Shown: positions 6,366 to 19,820 of the stretch, in pieces | How positions within the stretch are numbered: the stretch's first letter is position 1 | How the letters are laid out: every line of letters starts with the position of its first letter | NCBI RefSeq assembly: GCF_003086895.1 | Contig: NZ_CP026004.1 | Span: 1,896,731-1,960,730, forward strand | Source of the DNA: Stenotrophomonas sp. ESTM1D_MKCIP4_1 | Lineage (GTDB): Bacteria > Pseudomonadota > Gammaproteobacteria > Xanthomonadales > Xanthomonadaceae | DNA: 64,000 bases | Reading direction: 5' to 3' | Made by a program: the position numbers and the translations under genes | Notes under the pieces: model-generated | Database searches by the model: none | Seen by the model: the letters and a program-made list of their open reading frames with translations, nothing else | What the model was told of the DNA's origin: nothing

Positions 6366-7004
6366 TCAATGCTGCCGATGAGCGGGCGGTGCATGCCGGC
6401 GCAGGTCGTGGCGCTCCAGCGCCCGCTCGCGGCCGGACAAGGCCTTTGCGGTGGCCTTCACCAGGTCATGGGTGTGCAGGTCTGCCAGCAGTATCGGCAC
6501 GGCTGCAGCAACCGCGATGGCCAGCAGCACCCCGCGGATACGCACCGGCATCAGGCCGGCAGGCGCGCGCAGGCCACGCAGAACCCAGGCGGACGCGGCC
6601 ATGCCCAGACTGAGCCCGATGATGATCTCCGACAACGAGTGCGCGCGCAGCGGCACTCTTGACCAGGCGATCGCCAGTGCCAGTCCGGCGCCTGCGACGG
6701 CCCAGGCGCGGGGGTGCCGGCTGCGACCGCTGGCGAGCAGCCAGAAAGCCACGGGGTAAAGCGTGCTGGACATCGCGGCATGGCCGGAAATGCCGGTGAA
6801 ATCCACCGATTCGATGCCCAGGCCCCAACCCATGAAGGCGATCTTGCTGGCGAGCGTGGCGACGGCGACGAGCGCGACCGCTGCAGCCCAGCGGCACAGC
6901 AGGCGGTGGTGCGCAGGTGGCGCGAACAGGGCCAGAACGACGGCAAGGGGAAGCAGGGCGCGACTGTCGCCGAGTGCGGACAGTGTCTCCCAGAGGGTCA
7001 TCAT
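6366..7004 (-). CDS. PAP2-family membrane phosphatase
   Basis: A 212-aa integral membrane protein with about five hydrophobic helices. PAP2 phosphatase signatures are visible: SGHAAMSS for the PSGH motif and SRVPLRAHSLSE for SR-x5-H-x3-D. The last acidic residue is Glu instead of the usual Asp, and the first motif (around KIAFMGWGLG) is degenerate. Family members hydrolyse lipid phosphates such as undecaprenyl pyrophosphate or phosphatidic acid, and a role in lipid-carrier recycling would fit the neighbouring polysaccharide genes. The substrate is not deducible. It lies 83 bp upstream of the export operon on the same strand, with the operon's own leader in between. Confidence 0.78.
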   Translation of the reverse strand: MMTLWETLSALGDSRALLPLAVVLALFAPPAHHRLLCRWAAAVALVAVATLASKIAFMGWGLGIESVDFTGISGHAAMSSTLYPVAFWLLASGRSRHPRAWAVAGAGLALAIAWSRVPLRAHSLSEIIIGLSLGMAASAWVLRGLRAPAGLMPVRIRGVLLAIAVAAAVPILLADLHTHDLVKATAKALSGRERALERHDLRRHAPPAHRQH

Positions 7005-7119: not shown

Positions 7120-7196
7120 GGCCCCGTAGCTCAGCTGGATAGAGCGTCCCCCTCCTAAGGGGAAGGTCGCCCGTTCGAATCGGGCCGGGGTCACCA
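7120..7196 (+). tRNA. tRNA-Arg (anticodon CCT)
   Basis: A full cloverleaf can be drawn: acceptor GGCCCCG/CGGGGTC (one G-U), D-arm GCTC...GAGC, anticodon stem TCCCC/GGGGA with loop CTCCTAA (anticodon CCT), T-arm GCCCG TTCGAAT CGGGC, discriminator A and encoded CCA (7194-7196). Its 3' 50 bp is the attachment site of the neighbouring prophage, and the gene is intact after integration. Confidence 0.96.
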
Positions 7197-7197
7197 T
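7148..7197. other. Attachment site (left), inside tRNA-Arg
   Basis: The 50 bp from the anticodon stem to one base past CCA is identical to 19587-19636. Such a duplication of a tRNA 3' end is the mark of tyrosine-recombinase integration. The left copy reconstitutes the functional tRNA. Confidence 0.93.
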
Positions 7198-7329
7198 ATT
7201 TCAATGACTTAGCTGGGTGTGTGGCAGTTTATGTCGCCATATCTAGGTAGGTTTCCTGGCCTGAATGGCACAGTTGGCACACCTATCAGCCGCCACCAGT
7301 CGCATGCTGTGCGACGACAGGAGTGCAAA

Positions 7330-8268
7330 GTGCTGCAAGTGGTGACGGTGAACGCGGATGAGCTTGACACCTTTGAACAGCTGGGTAGTAAGGACAAGTT
7401 CTGGTACGACGACCGGAAGTACCTGTTCAAGGCACGTCGCAAGGACACGGGTGAGGACTGGGCCGAAGTCGTCGCCGCGCTAATCGCCAAGGAGCTGGGG
7501 CTGCCATACGCCTTGTATGACCTCGCCGAAGCAATCAATCTCCCGGACCCGGTGGTGGGTGAGCCCGAGCGAGAGCCAAGGGGCGTTCGGAGCCTAAATT
7601 TCACACCAGTTGATGGTGGCCGCCTTGTCGTCGGTAACGAGCTGATCGGCCCACCACCTGGCACCTCTGCGGCTAGGGCGGTAAGAGCGGCTCAGCGCAA
7701 GCTTTTTCACACGGCTGCACGCATTCATAGGCTATTGGTGGGCATGCCTTCCCTAGAGCTTCCACTTGGATGGCCTGCGCCGGTGTCGACCATGACTCCC
7801 GTGGGGGTTATGGCCGGCTATTTGATGTTGGATGTGCTCATTGGAAATCAAGATCGACACGAGGAGAACTGGGGCTTCGTGACTTACCAGCGAAGGGTCT
7901 ATTTGGCGCCGACCTTTGACCATGCCTCTAGCCTCGGCCGTGAGCTCACGGATGCTCGTCGTAAGATGAAGCTTGCACCCAAGGACGATCGCCACAATGT
8001 TGTGGGCTACGCCTCTAAGGCGTTGAGTCAACTCTTCGATAGGAAGACTGGAGAGCGGTTGACAACGGTGAACGCGTTCCTGGACTTTGCCAGCAACAGT
8101 AGGGAGAGTTCCCTTTATTGGTTAGGAAAACTTAAAAACCTAGATGAACAATTTTTCCGCCACCTCTTCTCGCTTATTCCAGATTCACATATCACGGATA
8201 TAGGTCGCGAGTTTGCAGTTCAACTCTTGATGGAAAATAGGAAGAGGTTGCTGGCGTTAACGCTATGA
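7330..8268 (+). CDS. HipA-like kinase-fold protein
   Basis: A 312-aa protein with the HipA C-terminal (PI3/4-kinase-like) fold. It shows a GSKDKFW glycine-containing loop, a Lys in YLFKAR (about residue 34), a Glu on the following helix, a catalytic loop GNQDRHEEN (about 172-180, Asp175 and Asn180) and a metal-binding FDHASSLG (Asp197). All residues expected for phosphotransfer are present. The HipA N-terminal subdomain is missing and is instead supplied by the next gene, as in split HipS/HipT systems. I chose GTG 7330 because AGGAG lies six bases upstream and the family pattern starts there; the frame stays open to GTG 7219. It overlaps the next gene by ATGA. Substrate unknown; toxin or defence kinase is an inference. 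Confidence 0.8.
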   Translation: MLQVVTVNADELDTFEQLGSKDKFWYDDRKYLFKARRKDTGEDWAEVVAALIAKELGLPYALYDLAEAINLPDPVVGEPEREPRGVRSLNFTPVDGGRLVVGNELIGPPPGTSAARAVRAAQRKLFHTAARIHRLLVGMPSLELPLGWPAPVSTMTPVGVMAGYLMLDVLIGNQDRHEENWGFVTYQRRVYLAPTFDHASSLGRELTDARRKMKLAPKDDRHNVVGYASKALSQLFDRKTGERLTTVNAFLDFASNSRESSLYWLGKLKNLDEQFFRHLFSLIPDSHITDIGREFAVQLLMENRKRLLALTL

Positions 8269-9065
8269 AGAAAATTTATCTAGCATTGCAAGATTCTGTA
8301 ACTCGCTCATGGTTTCCGGTCGCGCGCGTCGATCGCCTTAAGCCGGAAAATTTGAGCGAGGATGTGTACTTATTGCGTTACACCAAAGGTGTTAATAAGT
8401 TCGCCGATTTTGGCGGGTTCGGGCGCATGGCTGATCTCACCGCTGCTTATTTTTCAGTGGGTCTTTTTCCGCTTCTGAAAAACCGAGTTATTTCTAGAAA
8501 TCGTGCTGATTTTTCCTCCTTTGCTCGTTGGTTGGGAAAGAAGGAGTCTGAGCTAACATTCTTTGATGAGCTTGCTGTTACTGGCGGTCAGCGTGGAACG
8601 GATTCGATCGAGTTAATTCCCGTTCCTGAGCGTTCGCCTGATGGAATGTATCGGGTGTCTTTTTTCGTGCATGGTGTTCGCTATCTTTCCGCAAAAGAGC
8701 AATTAGAATTTTCTCATTTGAAGGATGGGGATGAGTTAGTTCTTGTCCCTGAGTTTAATAATGAATCGGATCGTCATGCTCTTTTGCTGAAGAGGCATGG
8801 ATCGGCGCATCATGTCGGGTATGTTCCCCGCTATTTCTCTAAAGACTTTAGTTTTCTGATGAGAAGGTCTAGTCGGGAGGTTAGCGTAACTGTGCAAAGG
8901 GTTAATCCTGATGCGCCGTATGCATTTCGCGTTTTATGTCAATTTGAAACAAATTGGCCTGATAGCTTTGATGCGTGCAGGGGGGGTGACTTTGAGTTGC
9001 TTGTTGACTTGCCTGATAACGTTCACCCCGTCCCTCAAGAAGCATCGTCAAAATTTGAGATTTGA
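8265..9065 (+). CDS. HipS-like (HipA N-terminal) domain fused to a HIRAN domain
   Basis: A 266-aa protein. Residues 1-120 resemble the HipA N-terminal subdomain/HipS: WFPVARVDRL, YLLRYTKG, LFPLLKNRVISRNR, FARWLG and a GGQRGTD turn. From about residue 125 to 225 it has HIRAN features: FFVHGVRYL, LKDGDELVLVP, NNESDRHALLL and HVGYVPRYF. HIRAN domains in Rad5/HLTF bind DNA 3' ends. The gene starts inside the stop of the kinase gene, so 1:1 coupled synthesis is likely. By analogy with HipBST, the HipS part could be the antitoxin or regulator of the kinase and HIRAN a sensor of damaged or invading DNA; this is inference. Base composition is strikingly AT-rich. The 3' end overlaps the convergent integrase gene by 18 bp. 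Confidence 0.75.
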   Translation: MKKIYLALQDSVTRSWFPVARVDRLKPENLSEDVYLLRYTKGVNKFADFGGFGRMADLTAAYFSVGLFPLLKNRVISRNRADFSSFARWLGKKESELTFFDELAVTGGQRGTDSIELIPVPERSPDGMYRVSFFVHGVRYLSAKEQLEFSHLKDGDELVLVPEFNNESDRHALLLKRHGSAHHVGYVPRYFSKDFSFLMRRSSREVSVTVQRVNPDAPYAFRVLCQFETNWPDSFDACRGGDFELLVDLPDNVHPVPQEASSKFEI

Positions 9066-10037
9066 TACTGCACCGTCATCTCCATCCGGAGTAAGGTGGG
9101 CATAGTACTTTTCGGTAGTCGCATAATCTGCATGACCCGCAAGTAGCTGGACGCGACGTAATGGCACCCCAGCCATCACCATGTGCGCGCAGAAGGTGTG
9201 GCGGAGCCTATGTAGGTGCCCGCCAACGCCGGCGCGTTCCGAGTCTTTTTTGAACCAGTCCGACACGGTGTCCTTGTGTACCGTGACGAGCGGATCAGGC
9301 AGGTGGCGCAATGCCCATCGGGCATAGCGGTTGAGAGGAACCTCCCGCCACTTTCCGGATTTCGTCCGGCCCTCGCCGCTCTCGTCCGGGTCGCTCTCCA
9401 CCAGCAGGCGGCCGGCCACGACCGAGCTCTTCTCCAGGCCGATGATCTCGCCCCGCCGTAGCCCGGTGTGGGCCATGAAGAGCCACAGCGGCGCCCGTTC
9501 AGGGTTCGCCTTATACAGCCGGCGCATCGCCGCCCGGTCATAGAACTTGACTGCCACGCTCCGCACGCCGCGAGGCGCCTTCACTGAGGCGAGCGGGTTC
9601 ACGTCCAGCTCTTTCCATTCGACGCCGCGGTTGAACGCCGCCTTCAGCCGTCGAATCTCCTTCCCCACAGTTTCCTTAGCAGCCTTGTCGTCCAGCAGCC
9701 TGGCGCGCTTGTACTGCTCCACCTCGACCGCTCGGATGCTGTCGATCGGACGGTGTCCGAAGCGCTCGATGAAGCGCTTCACCTCGCTCCTGGCTTTCGA
9801 GATCGTGGTCGGGTGCTCGGCCTCGTACCAGTCCAGATACCACTCGAGGTAGTCGCGGACCTTGGGGAGGCGCGCCAAGATCCGGACCCCATGGATCAGT
9901 TCTGCTTCTTTCGCGGCACGTATTCTCTCCGCCTCACGGGCGTCAGGTTCCCCAATGGACCTGCGAAAGCGCTCGCCGCCTTCCGACCAGTCGAGGTATG
10001 CCTTGCTGCCGCGCCAGTAGAGTCGAACCTTTGCCAT
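9048..10037 (-). CDS. Tyrosine-recombinase phage integrase
   Basis: A 329-aa integrase that catalyses recombination at the tRNA-Arg site. It has an N-terminal arm-binding region (MAKVRLYWRGSKAYLDW), a core-binding SAM-like domain (about 55-145) and a catalytic domain with Arg194 (TGLRRGEI), His276/Arg279 (HRLRHTF), His302 (GHADY) and the nucleophile Tyr312 (YYAH). All catalytic residues are present. Its 5' 142 bp overlap the coding sequence of the upstream HTH gene in another frame, which is unusually long. It converges on the HIRAN gene. Confidence 0.95.
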   Translation of the reverse strand: MAKVRLYWRGSKAYLDWSEGGERFRRSIGEPDAREAERIRAAKEAELIHGVRILARLPKVRDYLEWYLDWYEAEHPTTISKARSEVKRFIERFGHRPIDSIRAVEVEQYKRARLLDDKAAKETVGKEIRRLKAAFNRGVEWKELDVNPLASVKAPRGVRSVAVKFYDRAAMRRLYKANPERAPLWLFMAHTGLRRGEIIGLEKSSVVAGRLLVESDPDESGEGRTKSGKWREVPLNRYARWALRHLPDPLVTVHKDTVSDWFKKDSERAGVGGHLHRLRHTFCAHMVMAGVPLRRVQLLAGHADYATTEKYYAHLTPDGDDGAVSNLKF

Positions 10038-10231
10038 TCCTCTGCACCCTCTATCGCGGCATAGAGCGCCGCCTTTTCGTACAACTGCTTTCCCATGAAG
10101 CGCCGGGGCGTGAGCCCGTAGCCCATGGCGTTCTTCCTGAACTGACTGTTGGAAACTCCGCAGTAGTGGGCGGCTTCCTCGACCGTCAGCCAGTCCTTAC
10201 CCGAGAGGTCGAGCTTTTCAGCGGCTCCCAT
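9896..10231 (-). CDS. Small HTH protein, excisionase-like
   Basis: A 111-aa protein starting at ATG 10231 behind a strong AGGAGG five bases upstream; the frame is open further upstream but only antisense-like sequence is there. Residues 15-55 (DWLTVEEAAHYCGVSNSQFRKN, partly shown by its LTVEEAAHYCGVS core) form a winged-helix/MerR-type DNA-binding motif as in recombination directionality factors. The C-terminal third, basic and ending PRKKQN, is encoded in the overlap with the integrase gene. Position immediately before int and co-direction suggest an excisionase or int regulator. The start overlaps the methyltransferase remnant's stop by 14 bp. Confidence 0.7.
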   Translation of the reverse strand: MGAAEKLDLSGKDWLTVEEAAHYCGVSNSQFRKNAMGYGLTPRRFMGKQLYEKAALYAAIEGAEEWQRFDSTGAAARHTSTGRKAASAFAGPLGNLTPVRRREYVPRKKQN

Positions 10232-11650
10232 GGATGCCTCCTGTAGCCTTCCTCTTTGCCACCAACGTGTCTGCTGCCATTCGATCCAGATTGGCCTCGG
10301 CCAAGGCGCGCAACGGCGGCGGGCTGACGCTGTTGCCGACCATGCGCACGGCGGCGCTGGTGCTGAGCGGCGTCCCGTTGGCCGTGCGATCGATGATGTA
10401 ACCAACCGGGAAGCCCTGTGCGCGGTACAGCTCATGTGGCTTGAGCATGCGCAGCCCGATATCCACGATGACGTGCGGCACGCCTTGGATTTGGACGGTG
10501 ACCAGTGCGTGGCGGTCCTTGGTGGTGATGGTGTCCACCGGGTCGTGCAGGTCGACCGCAATGCCGCTGCCGTAATACTTCACCAGGAAGGCGGCGACGC
10601 GCAGCGCGCCCGCCTCCTGATCGGGAGTCAGCTGCGCCAGTTCGGCCTGGACCATGGCGTGTCCACCATTGCCGCTGGCAGTGACCGTGCCGACGGGTGC
10701 GCGCGCATCCTTGCTGCCGTTGCCCCAGCGCTGGACGCCGCCAGGCTTCCCCTCACCGTGTGCCGCCTGGACCATGAAGGCGCTGGAAACGGCGTGGTGC
10801 TCTGCCTGAGCGGCCACAGTGGTGAGCGGCGTGCGCGCGTCGGCGCCGACCATGTTCCGCCGCAAGGTGACCAGCGAGGCAGCGGCCAAGCCGAGGGCGT
10901 GCGCGGCGCCGGCCGGTCGCGCGGCACCAGCACCAGAGGTGATCGTTGGCACCGGCTCGGTGGCAGCCGCGCCGGAGCTGTCGCCGCGGAACTTGACCAG
11001 GTGGGCGGCTGCCACCGCATGCTTCACGCCGCCGGCAACTACGGTGCCCAGCGGCTGCAGCAGGTCGAGCGCGCGCGGGGCCTGACCCTCGCGCTCTCCG
11101 TAGCCGGTCTGTACCAGCGTTGGCGCCACCACGGAGAAGTGGCCGCCCTTCACGCCTGCGCAGACCGTGCGCAGCGGCTCGTCGGCTCGCATGGAGCCGA
11201 GCGCATGGCTGCTATTCGCATGCTCAGCGATGAAGGGTGCCAGCTCGGGCGCCGCCAGCATCAGTTCGCCGCGGTTGGCCGCGGTGATGGTGCGCATGGG
11301 ATCCCGCACGTCGTGGACGCGGTCGCCGCCCTGGTGCGTCACCGGCACGATAAAGGGATCGGCCGAGTTGATGACGTGGCGCATGACGCCCTTGGCGACG
11401 CGGCGCATGGTGGCATCGGCCAGCGCCTTGCCGCGGGTGAAGATGGACGGGCAGGGGATGGAAAAATCCAGGCAGTCGGCGGCAGTGACGCGCGGCGTCT
11501 GGTCTGGCGCGGGGCCGTGGCTGGCCTCCGGCCACACGATGGCCTCGCCGTCGCGGCGCGCGAGCAGGAACAGGCGCTCGCGGCTGGTGCCGGCACCGTA
11601 GTCGCTGGCCACCAGCTTGCGCCACTCAACTACATACTGGAAGAACCCGC
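10218..11650 (-). pseudogene. Phage DNA cytosine-5 methyltransferase, N-terminally deleted
   Basis: The remnant of about 470 codons keeps the second half of a large phage C5-methyltransferase: motif VIII (SDYGAGTSRERLF), a long target-recognition region built of imperfect repeats (pattern PxxTITxxxxHAxxxAxL), motif IX (LYRAQGFPVGYII) and motif X (RMVGNSV). The SAM-binding motif I and the catalytic Pro-Cys loop of motif IV are absent, because the frame runs into unrelated sequence upstream of EWRKL near 11650. There the opposite strand carries a tail-gene fragment. It should be inactive. An ORF with start codon still exists across the junction (MRPLTSLMIS...), so a stable fragment may be made. 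Confidence 0.85.
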
Positions 11651-11652
11651 CG

Positions 11653-11832
11653 GCGGAGATCATCAGCGAGGTCAGCGGACGCAACTACGGCCTGCCGGCG
11701 GCGCCGCAGGTAACCGTCGCGGTGTCGTCGCCAGTCAACGATGAGGTGGACGACGCGGGTATTCCTACCGCTGTCGTGCGCATCGGCACGGCGCCGCGGC
11801 ACGGCTACGCCACAGTGACGGAGGCGTTGTAA
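11653..11832 (+). pseudogene. 3' fragment of a phage tail (host-specificity J-like) gene
   Basis: About 60 codons remain, ending in TAA that overlaps the next ATG (TAATG). The segment SSPVNDEVDDAGIPTAVVRI looks like the distal part of a tail-tip protein, and the next gene continues with a fibronectin-III-like module typical of J-type proteins or their partners. The 5' part is lost at the same point where the methyltransferase remnant begins. Assignment to the J family is inferred from position. Confidence 0.6.
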
Positions 11833-12482
11833 TGTCGGTCCCAATCGCCTCGTACGAGCTGCGATTCCGCGCTGTCGGCGCACCCGACGCAGCCTGGCAG
11901 TACCGCAGCCAGGTGGCGGGCACGGTGTTTGTGGTGCGCGAGCTGCAACGCGGCACGCCCTACGAAATGCAGATGCGCTCGGTTGGCACCAACGGCCGCG
12001 CATCGGCCTGGGTAGACGTCGCCGTCGACGTGCCGGACACCAACCGTGTCGGCGCCGCCGCGTTGCCCAACATCGGCAATCAGCAATCGATGTGGGACAT
12101 GACCACGTCGGTCACCTTCGCTGCGTCCAGCGATGCTGCAGGTGCGTCGGTTGCCACCGTCAGTGTGACGGCCGGCACGCTGATCATCGGCTCCGTGCAG
12201 GTGTCCTACGCCGCCAGCAGCGCCACCCTGACCGGCACGGCCGGGCAGAAGGTCACCGTCTACCTCTACTACGTCGATCCGCAGCTGGTGGGCGGCAGCC
12301 GTCAGCTGATGCTGACCACCAACATCGTGGAAACCGCGAACGCCAACGGCAACGTGGCGATCAGCTCGCTCCAGATCACCTTCCCGGCTGCAGGTGCCTC
12401 TGGCAGTGGTGGGGGCGGCATCGGTGGTGGCGGCGGTAGTGGCGGGTCCAGAAATCCTGCATTTGAGGAAGTGCCGATATGA
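11832..12482 (+). CDS. Phage tail protein with fibronectin-III-like domain
   Basis: A 216-aa protein. Residues 5-65 have an Fn3 pattern (YELRFRAVG, VRELQRGTPYEMQMRSVG, ASAWVDVAVDV). The middle is a beta-rich domain and the C-terminus is a glycine-serine linker (GGGGIGGGGGSGGS) before a short tail. It overlaps the preceding fragment by one base and the following gene by ATGA, so it belongs to the late tail operon. It is likely a tail-tip accessory or fibre-attachment protein. No enzymatic motif is visible. Confidence 0.6.
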   Translation: MSVPIASYELRFRAVGAPDAAWQYRSQVAGTVFVVRELQRGTPYEMQMRSVGTNGRASAWVDVAVDVPDTNRVGAAALPNIGNQQSMWDMTTSVTFAASSDAAGASVATVSVTAGTLIIGSVQVSYAASSATLTGTAGQKVTVYLYYVDPQLVGGSRQLMLTTNIVETANANGNVAISSLQITFPAAGASGSGGGGIGGGGGSGGSRNPAFEEVPI

Positions 12483-12865
12483 GCTATGCGAAGAAAGAAG
12501 GCTTGCCGGTCGCCGAGGGCGAAACGGCGGTGGAACTGGACACCGGCGAGCTGGTGGCGGTCGTGTGCACGCGGACACTGCTCGGCGGACAGATCCTGTT
12601 CCGCGGCAAGGCGCGTGCTGTGACGCCCGAGGGCACGGTTGTGGTCGGCGCGGATGGGCTGCCGATCGCGCGCGAGTTCCAGCACACCGACCCCAGGCCG
12701 GACAAGGCCAATGAGGTGGCCAGGGACGTCCTGCTGGCGCTGCTTGGCGAGCCACCGGAGCTTGTTGCTTGGTCCGCCCAGGTGCTGCTGGACGTGAGCA
12801 TTCGCCAGGCGCTGCAGCTTGCCAACATCAATACCGGGGCGGTGGATGCCTCGGCTGTTCTTTAA
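12479..12865 (+). CDS. Phage tail-region hypothetical protein
   Basis: A 128-aa protein of unrecognised family, translationally coupled to the Fn3 gene (ATGA). The N-terminal 55 residues are beta-rich (ETAVELDTGELVAVVCTR, ILFRGKARAV), and the C-terminal half is helical (ANEVARDVLLALLG, QVLLDVSIRQALQLANI). No signal or membrane segment. Its place between tail-tip and tail-spike genes suggests a small structural or chaperone function for the fibre. Confidence 0.55.
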   Translation: MSYAKKEGLPVAEGETAVELDTGELVAVVCTRTLLGGQILFRGKARAVTPEGTVVVGADGLPIAREFQHTDPRPDKANEVARDVLLALLGEPPELVAWSAQVLLDVSIRQALQLANINTGAVDASAVL

Positions 12866-12874
12866 GGGGGAGAG

Positions 12875-15037
12875 ATGACGACGATTGATGGGCGGCAGGT
12901 AATTCCTGCATCTGATCTGCCACAGCGATATGCGGGCGTGGATGATGGACTGGTAGGCGTGGTTCGCGCTGGCGACGTGTTGGCGACCTTCCGGCTTAGC
13001 GAACTGCCGACACCCAAGCAGGCTCAGGCGCAGATCGATGCGCTGACCGCAGGCCAGCAGTCGAACGCGATCTACGCGGACACGCTGCCCCAGCTGCAGG
13101 CCATCGCGGGCACCTATGTGGGTCAGGGAGCCTTTGTAAACAACGGCTCGGGCGCTGGGCAATACATCTGGAATGGCTCGTCCTGGGTGTTCTCCCGTGC
13201 CGACCTGCTGAGCCAGAAGGCCGATCGCTCGGAGCTTCTGCTCAAGGCCTCCAACTCGCTGGTGGCGACCAAGATTGATGCCGTCATGGTCCCGTTCGAG
13301 CAGTTCAGTTTCTATGCCGCGAGCGATGACCTGGTGCCTATCGGCGCGATTGACCCGGTGACCGGGGTACCGTTGGCTGCGTTCCGTGTGTCCACTGGCG
13401 AATTGCTCGCCTGGTTCGCCCCGGACAATCCAAGCATCAACAGCATTGCGCTGACGAATCTGGCCAAAGCCGTTCCAGAAACGGCCCGCCTGTTCACTGT
13501 CGATGGGGACGTTGTTCCGCTGCTGGCCACCCGTGATCCGACTGATGGCAAGGTCTACCCACTGGTCTACTACAGCATCAGCGAGGATCGGCTCTACCCG
13601 GGTGGTGGGGGCCAAGGTGCGGTGCCTGAGGACGACAACGTCGCCTACATCGAAAACGGTACCTTGCGCAGCGTGGGCGGGCTGGGTGATCGAATCGTGG
13701 ATGCAGATGCGTCGCGTATCTGGCTCCAGGTGCAGACCGAGGGCGGCACCGGCAAGGGAGTGTTCCGGGATCTGCAGGGCGCGGCGCACGCTGTGCGCAT
13801 TGGGCTCGGATCGGCAAATCGATACCCGGTTGATGTGGTGCGCGGCATCTCCGGCGCAGGACAGTCCAATGCCGCTGGCCAGGCCGGATCATCCAACCGG
13901 TCCATTGTCTACGGTGAGCTCTACGAGTTCCCGAGCAAGCTGCTGATGCCGGCCACTGCTGCCAACAACGTCTGGATGGGCACACCCACTCAAGGCGGGC
14001 TTTCCACTGAACTGCTGCCCTCCTCAATCACTGGCCTTACCCGCCTGCGTAGCACCATCGCCTCGACCAACCAGCACGGCACCGTGGCCGAAGAGGCTGC
14101 AGGACGTAGCTACGTGCGCCGAGCGGCGGCGGAGTTGAACGGCTGGGCTCCTTCCGTGGTGGTCTGGACGAACGGTGAAGGAGGGCAGTCGATCCAGAAC
14201 ATGATGCCTGGCGCGCCGGCCGGATACTTCTACTTCGCCAACGTCATCGCCACCGTTACCCGCATCACCCAGATCCTTGCGGTGCAGGGCAAGCGCTTCG
14301 CACACGCATGGCTGAACATGGCGCAGATGGAGAGCAACTCGAGCGACGCTCTGATTGGCGACAAGCACTACAGCCTGCTTCAGGCCCATCAGGCTGCGAT
14401 CTATCCGATCACCGGGCAGACCGTTCCGCTGCGCATGATGACCAGCCAGATGAGCAGTTTCATCGGAGGTTCTCAGTCGCCCCGGTCGGTGCTGGATAAG
14501 GCGCTGGCCATCGAACAGAAGTGGGGCGACTTCTGGTGCCTCGGCCCCACCTACTGCTATCCCTTCCACAGCGATTTCCTTCACAACACCAGCATCGGCC
14601 ATGCCATGCGCGGTGAGTTCTTCGACCGGGCCGTGGAGGTGATGGAGCGCACTGGGTACTGGCGCCCGCTGCACATGGTCTCCGCCACCAGGCTCAGCGC
14701 GACCCAGATCCAGATCCAGCTGAGTGAGCCTGCAGTGCGGGACGCATCGTGGGCGGTACCTGACATTGCGAATGCTGGCATCTCCGTCGACGTGGGCACG
14801 GTCGAATCAGTTACCGTCAGCGGCAGCCAGGTCACCATCACGGTGCCGGATGCCGCAGCAGTTTCACAGGTCGGCGCTGCGGTCGTCGGGCACACCAGCG
14901 GCGTACCGCGAGAGGCAGCAACCATCCCCCGTTCAACCATCCGGAGCGTCGCATCCATCGGGCAGTGGAGCCCAGAGTGCGGCGGTCTGCGGATGCACAA
15001 GGCCCTGTGTCACCAGCTCATTTCTATCGGAGGTTGA
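12875..15037 (+). CDS. Tail spike/receptor-binding protein with SGNH esterase domain
   Basis: A 720-aa protein preceded by GGGGGAGAG. Residues 1-130 look like a particle-binding segment with heptad-type region (QAQAQIDALTAGQQSNAI). An SGNH/GDSL hydrolase domain spans about 320-600: block I is present as GAGQSNAAGQ (nucleophilic Ser near 331), and the Asp/His pair fits HSDFLHNTSIGH near 565-576. The C-terminus has an Ig-like segment (VSATRLSATQIQIQLSEPAV). Such spikes de-acetylate surface polysaccharide on contact with the cell. This is the largest intact structural gene left in the prophage. Confidence 0.75.
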   Translation: MTTIDGRQVIPASDLPQRYAGVDDGLVGVVRAGDVLATFRLSELPTPKQAQAQIDALTAGQQSNAIYADTLPQLQAIAGTYVGQGAFVNNGSGAGQYIWNGSSWVFSRADLLSQKADRSELLLKASNSLVATKIDAVMVPFEQFSFYAASDDLVPIGAIDPVTGVPLAAFRVSTGELLAWFAPDNPSINSIALTNLAKAVPETARLFTVDGDVVPLLATRDPTDGKVYPLVYYSISEDRLYPGGGGQGAVPEDDNVAYIENGTLRSVGGLGDRIVDADASRIWLQVQTEGGTGKGVFRDLQGAAHAVRIGLGSANRYPVDVVRGISGAGQSNAAGQAGSSNRSIVYGELYEFPSKLLMPATAANNVWMGTPTQGGLSTELLPSSITGLTRLRSTIASTNQHGTVAEEAAGRSYVRRAAAELNGWAPSVVVWTNGEGGQSIQNMMPGAPAGYFYFANVIATVTRITQILAVQGKRFAHAWLNMAQMESNSSDALIGDKHYSLLQAHQAAIYPITGQTVPLRMMTSQMSSFIGGSQSPRSVLDKALAIEQKWGDFWCLGPTYCYPFHSDFLHNTSIGHAMRGEFFDRAVEVMERTGYWRPLHMVSATRLSATQIQIQLSEPAVRDASWAVPDIANAGISVDVGTVESVTVSGSQVTITVPDAAAVSQVGAAVVGHTSGVPREAATIPRSTIRSVASIGQWSPECGGLRMHKALCHQLISIGG

Positions 15038-15040
15038 TTC

Positions 15041-15814
15041 ATGCTTCAGGTACTTCTTCCCACCCTCAAAGGCATTCCCCGCCGGCCGGGTGTTCCGCCT
15101 CTCAACCCGTCCAGCCTGAAACCCGTCTACCCCATTCGTGGCGAGGACGGTGCGCTGGATCACTTCCTGTTCGGTGGCAGCGACGACTCGCTGTATGGCC
15201 TGAAGGGGGTTGCTGCGTTCGCTCCAGCTGCTGCTGCTCCCGTCTTCCAGGACAACTACCTCACCACGGTCGACGGCGTGCTGAATGGCCTGGCCAGCAA
15301 CATCGCAGGGTCGCCGGCGTTTACCGTGTGCATGGTCACCCGCTACGACGTGCAGAACGGAAAGGCCGTGATCTACGCCGGGACGACCCAGGCGGCAAAC
15401 GGAGACGCCAAGGGCTGGGGCCTGCTGCGGGGGCCGACCTCGGACACCATCCAGCACCTGCTGCGTCCGAATGGGTCCGGCACGGCGATGCCGGCAAGCA
15501 ACATTCCCAGCGCGTTGGGCAGGTGGATCTTCCTCTGCATGCAGGTGGACGGCCCCGCGAAGACCTGGCGCTGTTCCGTCGGTGGCGCAACCGCAGTCAG
15601 CGGGACGATGGCGTCCGCCTATGCCGCTTCCGCCCGGGGCCTGGGTATCGGCAACGCGTACTACGCGCCGCCCACTGGCACGCCATACGATCGCGGCGTG
15701 TCAGTAGCCGAGGTCATTGCCTACGACTACATCGTCTCCCCGGAGGACTTGGCCGCCATCTACGCCAGGTCGAAGAACATTCGCATGGCTGATCGAGGGA
15801 TCACGGTCTTCTAG
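15041..15814 (+). CDS. Phage fibre protein with LamG-like lectin fold
   Basis: A 257-aa protein beginning 4 bp after the spike gene. From about residue 85 the sequence has the beta-sandwich rhythm of concanavalin-A/LamG domains: SPAFTVCMVTRYDVQNG, GRWIFLCMQVDG, KTWRCSVGG, and the terminal VAEVIAYDYIVSPEDLAAIY that is common in LamG-3 proteins of phages. It is probably a carbohydrate-binding part of the tail fibre. No catalytic residues are visible. Confidence 0.62.
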   Translation: MLQVLLPTLKGIPRRPGVPPLNPSSLKPVYPIRGEDGALDHFLFGGSDDSLYGLKGVAAFAPAAAAPVFQDNYLTTVDGVLNGLASNIAGSPAFTVCMVTRYDVQNGKAVIYAGTTQAANGDAKGWGLLRGPTSDTIQHLLRPNGSGTAMPASNIPSALGRWIFLCMQVDGPAKTWRCSVGGATAVSGTMASAYAASARGLGIGNAYYAPPTGTPYDRGVSVAEVIAYDYIVSPEDLAAIYARSKNIRMADRGITVF

Positions 15815-15980
15815 GGCGGGCCAGACGGTGAGAGAGAACAACGGATCGTTCAGCGTTTTCACGTGGCGCTAACCGCGCTGCCGCGATGTTCAATGCCGGC
15901 GAACAGGGGACTGCCGCACGTTCAGTCGCTGGACGTGCTGCAGGGCTGTCGACCCCCATATGTCAGAGCTGGTATTCGCC

Positions 15981-16112
15981 ATGAATCTTCTAGTGTCTCT
16001 CGCCTTCGCGGTGTTGTTCGGAGCAGCTGTCGTTGGGCTGCTGCACAGCGCGGTCGCGTTGTTCAAATCCCCGAAGTGCCAAGCCAGGTTGCGGAAGGGA
16101 AGGGCAGATTGA
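15981..16112 (+). CDS. Small membrane peptide (first gene of duplicated pair)
   Basis: A 43-aa ORF starting MNLLVSLAF with one hydrophobic helix (residues 3-27) and a basic Cys-containing tail. Its stop overlaps the next start (TGATG). It is too short to call by composition alone, but an equivalent arrangement (single-helix peptide, then the same small basic protein family) occurs at 19821-20196, which supports it. A phage holin-like role is possible but nothing proves it. Confidence 0.5.
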   Translation: MNLLVSLAFAVLFGAAVVGLLHSAVALFKSPKCQARLRKGRAD

Positions 16113-16282
16113 TGCGCTCCTTCCGTTACGCCTATCAGAAGGCACGCAGCTGGCACGGGTCGGTTCCAGCGTCGATCGTTGCAGGAATCAGGTACTCCCT
16201 GACTGGTGACAGCGGATATTTCAAGTCGCACGGTGGCTGGAGGATGTCCCGCCTGCATCGCGGATCTGACGTCGAAGAGTGA
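16112..16282 (+). CDS. Small basic protein, FRYAY/HGGWR family (prophage copy)
   Basis: A 56-aa protein beginning MRSFRYAYQKARSWHG and containing RYSLTGDSGYFKSHGGWR. The copy at 20011-20196 shares FRYAYxKxRxWH, RYxLTGDxGxF and SHGGWRxSRL, so selection has kept the protein sequence. Basic and aromatic, with no signal peptide. Family not recognised; a nucleic-acid or membrane-surface binding role could be guessed but not shown. It is coupled to the membrane peptide gene by TGATG. Confidence 0.62.
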   Translation: MRSFRYAYQKARSWHGSVPASIVAGIRYSLTGDSGYFKSHGGWRMSRLHRGSDVEE

Positions 16283-16288
16283 TGGTGT

Positions 16289-16444
16289 TCAGCCGACGGG
16301 CGTCAGCAGCTGCTCGGCGTTGTTCCGCGGCGTGTTAACCGCCCGGCAGGCCCGGTACGCCTCCATCGACGGGGGCGTGCTGGCCAGCAGCATCGTGTCT
16401 TGTCCACTGGCTGCCATCCAGTCATCGATCTTATCGGCCTCCAT
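16289..16444 (-). CDS. Possible small ORF on the minus strand
   Basis: A 51-aa frame (MEADKIDDWMAASGQDTM... ending LLTPVG) with plausible codon use and an acidic, soluble composition. No clear ribosome-binding site precedes it. It would be transcribed divergently from the AlbA_2 gene, so a regulatory protein for that gene is conceivable. Weakly supported. Confidence 0.35.
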   Translation of the reverse strand: MEADKIDDWMAASGQDTMLLASTPPSMEAYRACRAVNTPRNNAEQLLTPVG

Positions 16445-16511
16445 GCAGACTTGTGTTTGTTCGAATCGCCATATCGCCTTAAGCTACGTTCAAACCTAAA
16501 GGACTGAACGA

Positions 16512-17690
16512 ATGAATCCGGATTGGATCTCCGCGCTTCTAGCTGACCGTGAAGCTGAAAGTGCAGTCCTTGATTTTAAAAGGGCAGTCCCGTCCAAGGA
16601 TGACGTCGGAATTAAGCCTTTCTTGAAAGATGTTGCCGCTTTTGCAAATGCGCGTGGTGGTCGAATTATTTATGGCATCTCCGAGGATGGTGCGGGGCGA
16701 GCGAAAGCAGTTTGTCCCGTTGAAGGTAATGCCGATCAGATATCCGTATGGATGCAATCAAAAATCATTGGCGGGATATTTCCTAGGCTGAGTGGAGTTG
16801 TGGTTCAGCCGATACATATGGGGGATGCGTCTTTAATAGTCATAGACATTCCTAGCCAGTTCGGAGGTCCCTACCAAGTTGAAGTTGGCGACTGGCAGTC
16901 TTTTCCAATCAGGGCAGGAGTGAGGAATGCTGTAATGAGCTATCAGCAACTTTATGACGCCTTCTCCCTGAGGGCTTCCGCTGAATCTCGAATGGAACAG
17001 TGGGTATCACAGCGAGTTTCAGAAGTTTCTTCGAGTATTAGACAGGCCAATTGGCGCTACGCTCTGGTTCACTTGGTGCCATTTTCAGCATTCCATGCTG
17101 GAGCCTCGTCGGATCTATCTGTTTTGCGTAGCAGGACTTTTCGGGCAAACGGCTCAATCCTCTTCAATAGATTTAACTATCGCGGGATGATGGCAAGCCA
17201 GAGCGTCGCAGGAACCCGACCTTCTCCACCCTATTTTCAGTTTCATCGAAACGGTATCGTTGAGATGGCTTGGTCAGTAGCGTACGAGTTTGGTGAAGCT
17301 AAGGTTCTTAAATCTTTGGACACGGCCATTAAACTCATAGATCTTTTGCCGCAGGCCGCGAGGGCATCTGAGCTCGCTGGCGTGAGCGGTCCAGGGTTGC
17401 TTTACATGAGTTACGTAAACGTAAACGGCTATTGTCTTGGTGCTCAGGATCGAGATGGCTTGGAGTATCACTCGCATCTCACCGACGAGCGGGATCTCTG
17501 TTTCGGGCCGCTGATATACGAATCACTAGATCTTTCAATCAATGAAATTTCACCCGTTGCTCAGAGTCTAATGACCGATCTTTTCCGATCATTCGCCTGG
17601 GATGATTGTTTCTATTTCGATCCTGATGGATCCATTGCCTCTAAAAAGCTTCTAGATTACGTTTCGGCGTATCGGGAGGCGTGGGATTAG
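16512..17690 (+). CDS. Schlafen/AlbA_2-domain protein
   Basis: A 392-aa protein. The N-terminal 140 residues carry the Schlafen AlbA_2 signature: ESAVLDFKRAVP (acidic residue plus DFK), FLKDVAAFANARGGRIIYGI (first 20 residues of the block at about 37-56) and a following SVWMQSKIIGGIFP segment. The rest, about 140-392, matches nothing I recognise and may be a fused effector or sensor. AlbA_2 domains bind nucleic acids, and Schlafen relatives act as RNases or defence factors. It sits at the prophage end between tail genes and umuDC, is AT-rich, and looks like separately acquired cargo. It converges on umuC with a 21-bp gap. Defence function is inference. Confidence 0.75.
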   Translation: MNPDWISALLADREAESAVLDFKRAVPSKDDVGIKPFLKDVAAFANARGGRIIYGISEDGAGRAKAVCPVEGNADQISVWMQSKIIGGIFPRLSGVVVQPIHMGDASLIVIDIPSQFGGPYQVEVGDWQSFPIRAGVRNAVMSYQQLYDAFSLRASAESRMEQWVSQRVSEVSSSIRQANWRYALVHLVPFSAFHAGASSDLSVLRSRTFRANGSILFNRFNYRGMMASQSVAGTRPSPPYFQFHRNGIVEMAWSVAYEFGEAKVLKSLDTAIKLIDLLPQAARASELAGVSGPGLLYMSYVNVNGYCLGAQDRDGLEYHSHLTDERDLCFGPLIYESLDLSINEISPVAQSLMTDLFRSFAWDDCFYFDPDGSIASKKLLDYVSAYREAWD

Positions 17691-17711
17691 ATGCAAGAGG
17701 TGGCGTACCCT

Positions 17712-18962
17712 TCAGCATCGCGCCGCCGGGATCTCGTGCACAGAGGTCGTGTAGTTTGGCGAAAGCATGTGCTGCCGCATGCCCCACGCTGGCCGAGCCT
17801 GCCAACCCGATGCGCCAAGGCCGGCCGTGCCGCGCTCGAACTTCTGGTTGATCCGGTCCATGGTAGCCATCAGCCTTTCATTGCCGACAACCGTCGGTCC
17901 GAACAGATCCGCCTGCAGCTCATCTGGCCGGGCCAGGTCGAGCAGCGCCACGCCGGCCTTCTTGTATCCAATGCCGTCGCGGAGCAGGCCGCATAGCAGC
18001 TTGCGCACGATGCCCAGCACCACGGTGGTGTCTGCGGTCGACGCGGGCAGGCCAACGGTTCTACTGGCGTTGTGCTGCCGCAGCTCCGGCCGGAATACGT
18101 CGGATTGGGCGAACACCCAGACGCCCGCAGTGACCAAGCCCCGGGCACGCAGCTTCTCGCATGCGCGCACGGCAAAGGTAGCCAACGCCTGGGCCACGGC
18201 TCCGTGGTCCTCGACTCGGTCAGCGAACGATCGGCTGACCATGATCTGCTGGCGGTCCGGCTCCACTTCCTCCAGCTCCATGCAGGGATGGCCCTGCAGC
18301 TCGCGCTGTGTGCGCGCCAGGGTGACACCGAAGGCTGCCAGGATGTCGTCCGTCGGCGCATCGCGCAGCCCGGCAGCAGTGGTGATGCCCATCGCCTCCA
18401 ACCGCGGCGCCAGCCGGCGGCCCACACCCCACAGATCCCCGACGGGGAAGGTGCCCAGCACCACTTCACGGTAGCCGACGTCGCCGAGGTCGATCACCCC
18501 GTCGGCGCTCTTGGCGACCTTGTTGGCCAGCTTGGCCAATGTCTTCGTGGGGCCTATACCGATGCAGTTGGGAATGCCGGTCCATCGGTGCACGCGCTGC
18601 CGCAGATCCCGGGCGAACCGCTCGCGATTGGGCACGCCATCTAGGTCGATGAAGCTCTCATCGATGCTGTATACCTCCACTCGCGGCGCGGCTTCTCGCA
18701 GGATGGCCACGACGCGCGCGCTCATGTCGCCGTACAGGCCGAAGTTGGCCGAGCGCATCTGCAGCCCGTGGCGCCGCACTAGGTGCTTCAGCTCGTGGGC
18801 CGGCTGGCCCATCTTGATGCCCAGGGCCTTGGCCTCGGCCGAGCGCGCGATCGCGCAGCCATCGTTGTTGCTCAGCACCACCAGCGGCACGCCGCGCAGC
18901 GCTGGCTGAAACACACGCTCACAGCTGGCGTAGAAGTTGTTTCCGTCAACGAGCCCGAACAT
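17712..18962 (-). CDS. umuC: UmuC, catalytic subunit of DNA polymerase V
   Basis: A 416-aa Y-family translesion polymerase. Catalytic acidic residues are visible in LVDGNNFYASCE (N-terminus) and YSIDESFIDL (about residue 100), with the helix-hairpin-helix thumb around 150-200 and the little-finger domain after 230. The C-terminal LFGPTVVGNERLMATMDRIN segment is typical of UmuC. The start overlaps the umuD stop by 17 bp, so UmuD and UmuC are coupled. Both are under a LexA box. In a prophage cargo position this gives the host inducible mutagenic repair. Confidence 0.94.
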   Translation of the reverse strand: MFGLVDGNNFYASCERVFQPALRGVPLVVLSNNDGCAIARSAEAKALGIKMGQPAHELKHLVRRHGLQMRSANFGLYGDMSARVVAILREAAPRVEVYSIDESFIDLDGVPNRERFARDLRQRVHRWTGIPNCIGIGPTKTLAKLANKVAKSADGVIDLGDVGYREVVLGTFPVGDLWGVGRRLAPRLEAMGITTAAGLRDAPTDDILAAFGVTLARTQRELQGHPCMELEEVEPDRQQIMVSRSFADRVEDHGAVAQALATFAVRACEKLRARGLVTAGVWVFAQSDVFRPELRQHNASRTVGLPASTADTTVVLGIVRKLLCGLLRDGIGYKKAGVALLDLARPDELQADLFGPTVVGNERLMATMDRINQKFERGTAGLGASGWQARPAWGMRQHMLSPNYTTSVHEIPAARC

Positions 18963-19428
18963 AGGGGCCTCGGCGTTTCACCTGGCGAACCACGCCGACC
19001 ACGGCGAACACCTCCACCTCGGTGGGCTGCTCGAGCAGGATTGGGGGGAAGTCTGGGTTGGCCGAGTGCAGCTCCATGTGGCTCTCGAACAGCTGCAGCA
19101 CCTTGCAGGTGGGCTGGTTCCCATCCCAGATGGCGATGACCAAGTCGCCGGCCAGCGGCGTGACCGACCGGTCCACCACCAGGATGTCCCCATCGCTGAC
19201 GCCTGCGCCGCTCATCGACCAGCCATCGGCCCGGTACAGGAACGTGGCGGCCGGGTTGCGTACAAGCAGACGGTGCAGGTAGATCGCTTCGTCCATGAAG
19301 TCGTCGGCGGGCGACGGGAAGCCTAGCCGCGCGCGCGCGGAGGCGAGGGGCACGAACTGCGCCGGGCCGTCGATTAGCGCGGGGCCAATGGGCTTCGCCA
19401 GAGTGTGGGGATAGGGTAGGGACTGCAT
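18946..19428 (-). CDS. umuD: UmuD, self-cleaving subunit of DNA polymerase V
   Basis: A 160-aa S24-family protein with start ATG 19428 (MQSLPYPH); the frame is open upstream but into the LexA-box region. The cleavage region is near ARLGFPSPADDF. The catalytic Ser is in GWSMSGAGVSDGD and the Lys in PTCKVLQLF, in the UmuD order and spacing. RecA-stimulated self-cleavage makes UmuD', which pairs with UmuC. It is a full-length UmuD rather than a LexA or CI repressor, as it lacks an N-terminal DNA-binding domain. Confidence 0.92.
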   Translation of the reverse strand: MQSLPYPHTLAKPIGPALIDGPAQFVPLASARARLGFPSPADDFMDEAIYLHRLLVRNPAATFLYRADGWSMSGAGVSDGDILVVDRSVTPLAGDLVIAIWDGNQPTCKVLQLFESHMELHSANPDFPPILLEQPTEVEVFAVVGVVRQVKRRGPYVRAR

Positions 19429-19478
19429 GGCGCGTACTCTGGAGAAGGCAGGTCTCACCTGCTGCGATGGCGCGCATG

Positions 19479-19494
19479 TTAGTACAAATACTAA
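19479..19494. promoter_or_regulatory. LexA (SOS) box before umuDC
   Basis: TTAGTACAAATACTAA is a perfect 6+6 palindrome around CAAA. It matches the TTAG-N6-TACTA LexA box described for Xanthomonadaceae and is unlike the E. coli CTGT-N8-ACAG box. It lies 51 bp upstream of the umuD start, as expected for SOS control. Confidence 0.85.
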
Positions 19495-19529
19495 TTTTGG
19501 GTCGTGAAATGGCTGTCGCGGTGCCCAAA

Positions 19530-19548
19530 TTGGCACAACTTTGGCACA
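19530..19548. repeat. Two TTGGCACA direct repeats
   Basis: TTGGCACA occurs at 19530-19537 and 19541-19548, 11 bp apart (one helical turn), about 40 bp inside the right attachment site. Integrase arm sites are often arranged this way. No matching repeats were seen at the left end, so the role is unproven. Confidence 0.35.
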
Positions 19549-19586
19549 GACCGTCCCAGAACCGTTGCAATATATAGGCGGGTCGC

Positions 19587-19636
19587 CCCCCTCCTAAGGG
19601 GAAGGTCGCCCGTTCGAATCGGGCCGGGGTCACCAT
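19587..19636. other. Attachment site (right)
   Basis: Exact 50-bp copy of the tRNA-Arg 3' half (anticodon stem to one base after CCA). It has no 5' half of a tRNA, so it is not a gene. It marks the chromosome/prophage boundary. The rest of 19429-19820 holds the LexA box, the TTGGCACA repeats and otherwise no feature that I can see. Confidence 0.93.
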
Positions 19637-19820
19637 TCTTCTGCGTGGCACGTCCCAGTTGCCCAATCTGTTGTCGCATTCAGCCGCATTGCATTGCCGG
19701 AAATGCGCATCACTCTGCAGAAAGACCCCTCTGTTTGCGCTTACGGTGGTCCTGCAGCACAGGTTGGCCGTCTATTCCACGGCAGTAGCCTGACCGCATT
19801 CCAGTCGGCCGGAGTATCCC

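Follow-up and report, generated by a model that had tools for sequence, protein, structure and literature searches.

A 64,000-nucleotide (nt) stretch of Stenotrophomonas sp. ESTM1D_MKCIP4_1 (contig NZ_CP026004.1, positions 1,896,731 to 1,960,730; hereafter the window), part of a 4.48-Mb single-contig genome, carries two overlapping genes behind a tRNA-Arg gene. The first encodes a short HipA-like kinase, the second a protein in which a HipS-like domain is joined to a HIRAN domain. The pair is a member of the hipIN organisation already described in 2021, a HipI kinase plus HipN assigned to main clade XI of the Hip kinases (Gerdes, Baerentsen and Brodersen 2021, PMC8262856), and not a new system; the genes are named accordingly here. 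Among the matches listed, the closest proteins for both bear the name Stenotrophomonas maltophilia. The locus is composed of the following features:

7197..7329, plus strand: leader of 133 nt between the tRNA gene and the kinase gene
7330..8268, plus strand: hipI, HipA-like Ser/Thr kinase core of 312 amino acids, without N-subdomain 1
8265..9065, plus strand: hipN, HipS-like domain (residues about 2-122) and HIRAN domain (about 124-239), 266 amino acids

The open reading frame (ORF) of hipI starts with GTG and, according to the ORF list, the four nucleotides ATGA at 8265-8268 are common to the hipI stop and the hipN start. Scans of the leader found neither a sigma-70-like promoter nor a terminator-like site, and promoter and terminator scans around the two genes did not rise above the level of shuffled sequence. 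The sequence-only reading, which had reported a kinase gene followed by a HipS-HIRAN gene at 7330..9065, is confirmed.

HipI is a Hip kinase reduced to its core. A Pfam scan finds HipA_C in the protein, and an NCBIfam scan yields only a YjjJ match below the cut-off. E. coli HipA chains from the PDB align with it only from about their residue 125 onwards, and two Shewanella chains from residue 68-71; a HipI profile scores 96.6 against the HipA core and 0.3 against the HipA N-subdomain, in a comparison whose HipA side used 12 of 16 HipA-family places (the four without the filter's motif pattern were left out). These chain alignments and profiles bear out the earlier claim that the kinase lacks the N-terminal subdomain of HipA. 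The kinase residues said to look intact, K34, D175, N180 and D197, are indeed conserved in 146-148 of 148 aligned kinases. Position 20 of the glycine-rich loop is a serine in the window protein; among the 148 kinases it is threonine in 136, serine in 10 and a gap in two, so that every one of the 146 readable rows has Ser or Thr, as would be expected if autophosphorylation matters. Short Hip kinases without N-subdomain 1 are described as four families of 279-321 amino acids (PMC8262856), and in its short length, its missing N-subdomain 1 and its core Hip kinase motifs HipI has the make-up of a hipIN kinase.

The second protein combines the two parts that define the hipIN partner, an N-terminal HipS-like domain and a C-terminal HIRAN domain. 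HIRAN was found by the Pfam scan, and this C-terminal part matches the HIRAN fold of the HLTF and Rad5 type; the N-terminal part has a HipS-like fold match, which is moderate, as well as a profile match. Both structural matches support the view that the subdomain missing from the kinase is encoded in the next gene, fused to HIRAN. With HipN alone, a PDB sequence search gave no match, and no HipS chain was among those listed in the fold search, a listing that excludes nothing. Five HIRAN positions (N166, D169, A172, G185, P188) are each retained in 142-147 of the 148 rows; R139 is retained in 71 of 148, and the position of Y140 is a histidine in 72. In a metagenome-assembled genome (MAG) of S. 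maltophilia (locus L004/G037, 8936-9736), hipN has an in-frame TAG after the HipS-like part and hipI is open. If the stop in this MAG record is real, it would represent a natural variant of HipN without HIRAN.

The two genes are inherited together. The search for HipI homologues listed 120 of 1463, and 148 loci were examined, comprising the best 80 of 259 genome relatives, 66 viral loci, one Vibrio phage and the window locus. A HipN-profile match lies downstream of the kinase on the same strand in all 148, within 50 nt in 147 and at 320 nt in one, with a 4-nt overlap in 79. Many of the viral loci are near-copies; dereplication at 85% kinase identity left 96 pairs, for which the distance matrices of HipI and HipN correlate with a Pearson r of 0.89 (0 of 999 permutations as high). 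Within the genus, both genes are present in the same three of 91 genomes, with no orphan of either at the thresholds used. The family PHROG 26212 (547 positions) is matched by HipI at 159-311 and by HipN at 340-537, which implies that the two proteins also occur fused. Overall, the conserved adjacency supports the proposal that the pair forms one unit.

No architectural difference was found from hipIN as laid out in 2021; the window copy is distinguished by sitting in a defective prophage at a tRNA gene. The 2021 work is a phylogenetic study that calls the function of hipIN unknown, and it proposes that HIRAN may detect DNA ends, either of phages entering the cell or of replicative intermediates, and so switch on HipI, with abortive infection as the outcome (PMC8262856). 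In PADLOC-DB 2.0.0 the two adjacent genes give near full-length matches to both models of PDC-M03 (M03A, E-value 1.5e-93; M03B, 5.1e-79), a two-gene defence candidate label. A full-text literature search for PDC-M03 found no paper, and validation is pending for most of the PDCs discussed in a 2026 paper (PMC12988326). The literature searched yielded no experiment on the toxicity, the defence function or the DNA binding of hipIN.

Other Hip systems resemble the pair in part. HipBST likewise has the kinase core and the HipS-like domain in separate proteins, but it is tricistronic with an upstream HipB carrying a helix-turn-helix (HTH) domain, whereas in the window there is no HipB or HTH gene, the kinase gene comes first and the HipS-like part is fused to HIRAN. 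HipBA differs as well, in that its kinase has its own N-subdomain 1 and is accompanied by HipB. No separate ORF was found between the tRNA and the kinase or between HipN and the integrase gene that follows, and Pfam gave no HTH match in either protein; the earlier distinction from HipBA and HipBST, drawn from the lack of a HipB-like HTH gene, was correct. HipL shares the kinase, HipS-like and HIRAN parts but unites them in one protein, whereas the window has two ORFs, the first ending at 8268. CtkA of Helicobacter pylori is a proinflammatory kinase according to PDB titles, and it is not known to have a HIRAN partner. HipAD/DS-6 and PDC-M66 are likewise two-gene systems of a HipA-like kinase and a non-HipB partner, and have been tested as defence (PMC13092281, PMC12548924), but their partner is a DUF3037 protein rather than HipN, and HipI matches PDC-M66A weakly (3.2e-4). 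For DS-6/HipAD, a HipA-like kinase with a DUF3037/DUF1829 protein, mutation of the kinase is reported to abolish defence (PMC13092281). For the HipA-like/DUF3037 pair of Retron-Sda1 (PDC-M66), deletion of the kinase abolishes defence and deletion of the partner is toxic, in the manner of a toxin-antitoxin (TA) pair (PMC12548924). HipA- and HIRAN-domain genes also adjoin a third of the diDNase genes in the set of a 2025 paper, which cites hipIN (PMC11706625).

In the window, hipIN is placed within an integrated element whose parts are:

7120..7196, plus strand: tRNA-Arg (CCT) gene found by ARAGORN, the integration target, ending 133 nt before hipI
7145..7202, plus strand: attL, a 58-nt direct repeat over the 3' part of the tRNA gene found by repeat search, 95% to the copy at 19584-19641
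9048..10037, minus strand: tyrosine integrase gene (Pfam Phage_integrase, 9.9e-19; phrog_1), convergent with hipN
10038..19583: remainder of the element, with a DNA methyltransferase gene, a tail-fibre gene, a gene for an SLFN_AlbA_2 protein and UmuC- and UmuD-like genes (Pfam and PHROGs)
19584..19641, plus strand: attR, the second copy of the 58-nt repeat and right end of the 12.4-kb element

Since the 3' part of the tRNA gene is repeated at 19584-19641, hipIN lies inside the 12.4-kb element, as its first genes after attL. Two relatives from the genus (L170, L171) have the empty site: the sequence that in the window lies beyond attR follows their tRNA gene directly. Among the element proteins scanned, none was recognised as a capsid, terminase or portal protein, and for this reason the element is regarded as a defective prophage. 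One further protein of the element may be of the HTH type, with a match that misses the Pfam cut-off, and the attR end consists of the UmuC-like and UmuD-like genes (17712-19536). To the right of attR there is one terminator-like site, with 0.7 expected.

The sequence-only reading had placed the pair at a prophage edge beside a tRNA gene, a usual site of defence cargo. This holds for the window, and tRNA neighbours recur elsewhere, but an integrase was recognised within 3 kb in none of the 80 genome loci. A general rule of integrase linkage was consequently rejected (8 of 66 viral loci have an integrase within 500 nt). It is important to point out that 3 kb on both sides was present in 49 of the 80 genome loci. 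The integrase profile was built from the window integrase and found 27 ORFs; serine recombinases are outside its range, and the broken remnant of an integrase in L004, visible by blastn, escaped it.

The tRNA linkage was surveyed with ARAGORN in all 80 genome loci and in 60 viral or phage loci (L142-L148 left out); these 60 contain one tmRNA and no tRNA gene. Upstream sequence exceeds 700 nt in 74 genome loci, nine of which have a tRNA gene within 700 nt upstream on the same strand; of the 73 with that much downstream sequence, none has one there. From the tRNA density elsewhere in the loci 0.23 linked loci are expected (Poisson P 4e-12, for a cut-off of 700 nt picked after seeing the data). 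By anticodon, the nine loci and the window use eight tRNA genes. On a quick tree the tRNA-linked label changes eight times, at least six of these changes being forced by starred branches; long branches are flagged in this tree (L001, L063, L136), any row whose upstream sequence is too short is scored as having no tRNA, and only 2 of the 32 P2-linked rows are retained after dereplication. The kinase ORF starts 56-141 nt after the tRNA in six of the nine linked loci and in the window.

At locus L004, hipIN lies behind the same tRNA-Arg as in the window, together with what remains of an integrase and a perfect attR of 51 nt. At L048 (2005-3922) hipIN is the sole occupant of the 1.8 kb that separate tRNA-Ser(CGA) from an imperfect, 37-nt repeat of its 3' end, and there is no integrase. 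A minimal islet bounded by att sites was rejected as a general description: a clear tRNA-end repeat behind HipN is present in only these two of the nine linked loci, six show nothing above shuffled queries within 3 kb behind HipN, and the 14-nt match in L075 is marginal, scoring 23 where the null reached at most 20. In L008, L075 and L041 a terminator, read by eye, directly follows the tRNA, which renders insertion exactly at the tRNA end doubtful in these three. One may still imagine hipIN as a mobile anti-phage module, with DNA-end sensing by HipN and a translation-stopping kinase, that travels as a compact cassette recurrently settling behind tRNA genes, the integrase-less islet of L048 being an extreme case moved in trans by resident integrases; this is a tentative and rather improbable scenario.

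Relatives are also found in other phages. With a copy from a viral contig as query (L117, whose kinase is 36% identical to the window HipI), relatives were detected in 21 of 5,426 E. coli genomes, at 22 places. In all seven places that were read, a P2-like portal gene comes next after hipN, 34 nt away on the opposite strand; a replication endonuclease is listed upstream in five, and in two none falls within the stretch shown. The E. coli and viral relatives with this neighbour occupy the interval from replication gene A to portal gene Q; the window copy lies elsewhere, flanked by the tRNA/attL and the integrase of another prophage. A relative of the portal gene is found within 600 nt downstream in 32 of the 66 viral loci, which are mostly near-copies, although the portals of L091, L097, L102 and L130 are only 62-68% identical to the E. 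coli portal; the 80 genome loci gave no portal match. This is the gpA-gpQ, cos-proximal region, where P2 carries tin and old and where two studies report a hotspot of defence genes (Rousset et al. 2022, PMC9122126, and Vassallo et al. 2022, PMC9519451); HIRAN and HipA are absent from the main texts of both papers. In E. coli 89-3156 (L193, 506-3405), hipIN has two companions in the hotspot, both upstream of it: a gene for a SIR2-family protein and one for an ATP-binding protein.

Beyond P2-like phages, four of 50,697 phage records, with V. cyclitrophicus as hosts, match both proteins, with 94% of the query covered for HipI and 88% for HipN. The two Vibrio records that were read belong to the Vinavirales and carry a PM2-like capsid gene; hipIN adjoins the integrase in both. 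One further record, an Escherichia phage, matches the kinase in part, and another, Clostridioides phage phiCDKH02 (PP767789.1, 1427-2095), encodes a HIRAN protein that matches HipN over 92% at 23.6% identity; the HipI search of phage records, at the same limit as the HipN search, gave no kinase match for it. Among plasmids, the kinase is matched in seven of 72,556 records. In the literature searched, no mention was found of hipIN in the P2 hotspot or in Vinavirales, nor of its position behind tRNA genes.

We consider the window pair to be a prophage-borne hipIN (PDC-M03) module that acts as a kinase toxin with a combined inhibitor and sensor, and assign this reading a probability of roughly 60%. 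The HipS-like domain of HipN would dock on HipI in place of the missing N-subdomain and keep the kinase inactive, and the HIRAN domain may watch for free DNA ends or single-stranded DNA, for example from an infecting or replicating phage. Binding of such DNA by HIRAN is predicted to relieve the inhibition; HipI, once freed, would act as a toxin and phosphorylate a protein essential to the host, which by analogy may be an aminoacyl-tRNA synthetase, and the cell would cease to grow before it can produce the rival phage. A lysogen could thereby owe a defence against superinfection to the prophage or its relic. The strongest new support for this toxin-sensor reading is the location of some relatives, and hipIN is likely to be defence cargo. 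By analogy, the HipA-like/DUF3037 pairs lend support to a kinase-dependent defence in which an orphaned kinase would be toxic. The DNA-end step is the least secure part and rests on the fold and on partly conserved residues. If the HIRAN domain of HipN does sense DNA ends, damaged or replicating DNA would be wired directly to a growth-stopping kinase, through the same domain that serves eukaryotic fork-remodelling enzymes for DNA ends. The P2-borne E. coli copies are a ready system for testing the 2021 hypothesis with standard laboratory phages.

The two-gene overlap and the strict pairing would equally suit an ordinary TA pair that stabilises a prophage or island by addiction, with HIRAN tethering or stabilising HipN and any defence being incidental; HipA and HipT, which are relatives, are TA kinases, and the att-end location here and the tRNA neighbours in 9 of 74 genome loci fit such a role. 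The HipS-like domain alone should, however, neutralise the kinase, and yet the HIRAN positions are kept in HipN (142-147 of 148 rows); this conservation, together with the relatives in the gpA-gpQ region of P2 known for defence genes, makes simple addiction unlikely. The HIRAN fold of the HLTF and Rad5 type and the UmuC- and UmuD-like genes of the same element also invite the idea that HIRAN detects host DNA damage, such as stalled or broken forks, and that HipI tunes the host during the SOS response or prophage induction rather than acting against other phages. We regard this as quite improbable, as the pair, or its kinase, is also carried by other phages, chromosomes and plasmids, UmuDC is annotated neither in the two Vibrio records nor in L190, and in the window element UmuDC is at the end opposite to hipIN. 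That HipI is a non-toxic regulatory kinase merely resembling half of a TA pair, for which the stop in hipN of L004/G037 beside an open kinase gene would be tolerable, is very improbable, given that this stop lies beyond the HipS-like part, so that inhibition could persist, and that the pair is distributed patchily, in 3 of 91 genomes of the genus, a pattern more in keeping with accessory conflict genes than with housekeeping ones.

The prophage remnant that carries the toxin-sensor candidate encodes another possible conflict gene, for the Schlafen AlbA_2 protein at 16512-17690 (2.5e-10). In the 10218-12482 region, the Pfam match of the DNA methyltransferase is confined to the C-terminal part (395-464), and the adjoining gene, in back-to-back orientation, is a fragment with a weak Fn3 match below the cut-off; the prophage may have suffered a large internal deletion at this junction. 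Outside the element, to the left of the tRNA gene, a minus-strand ORF at 6366-7004 was named a PAP2-like phosphatase by reading of the sequence rather than by a family scan.
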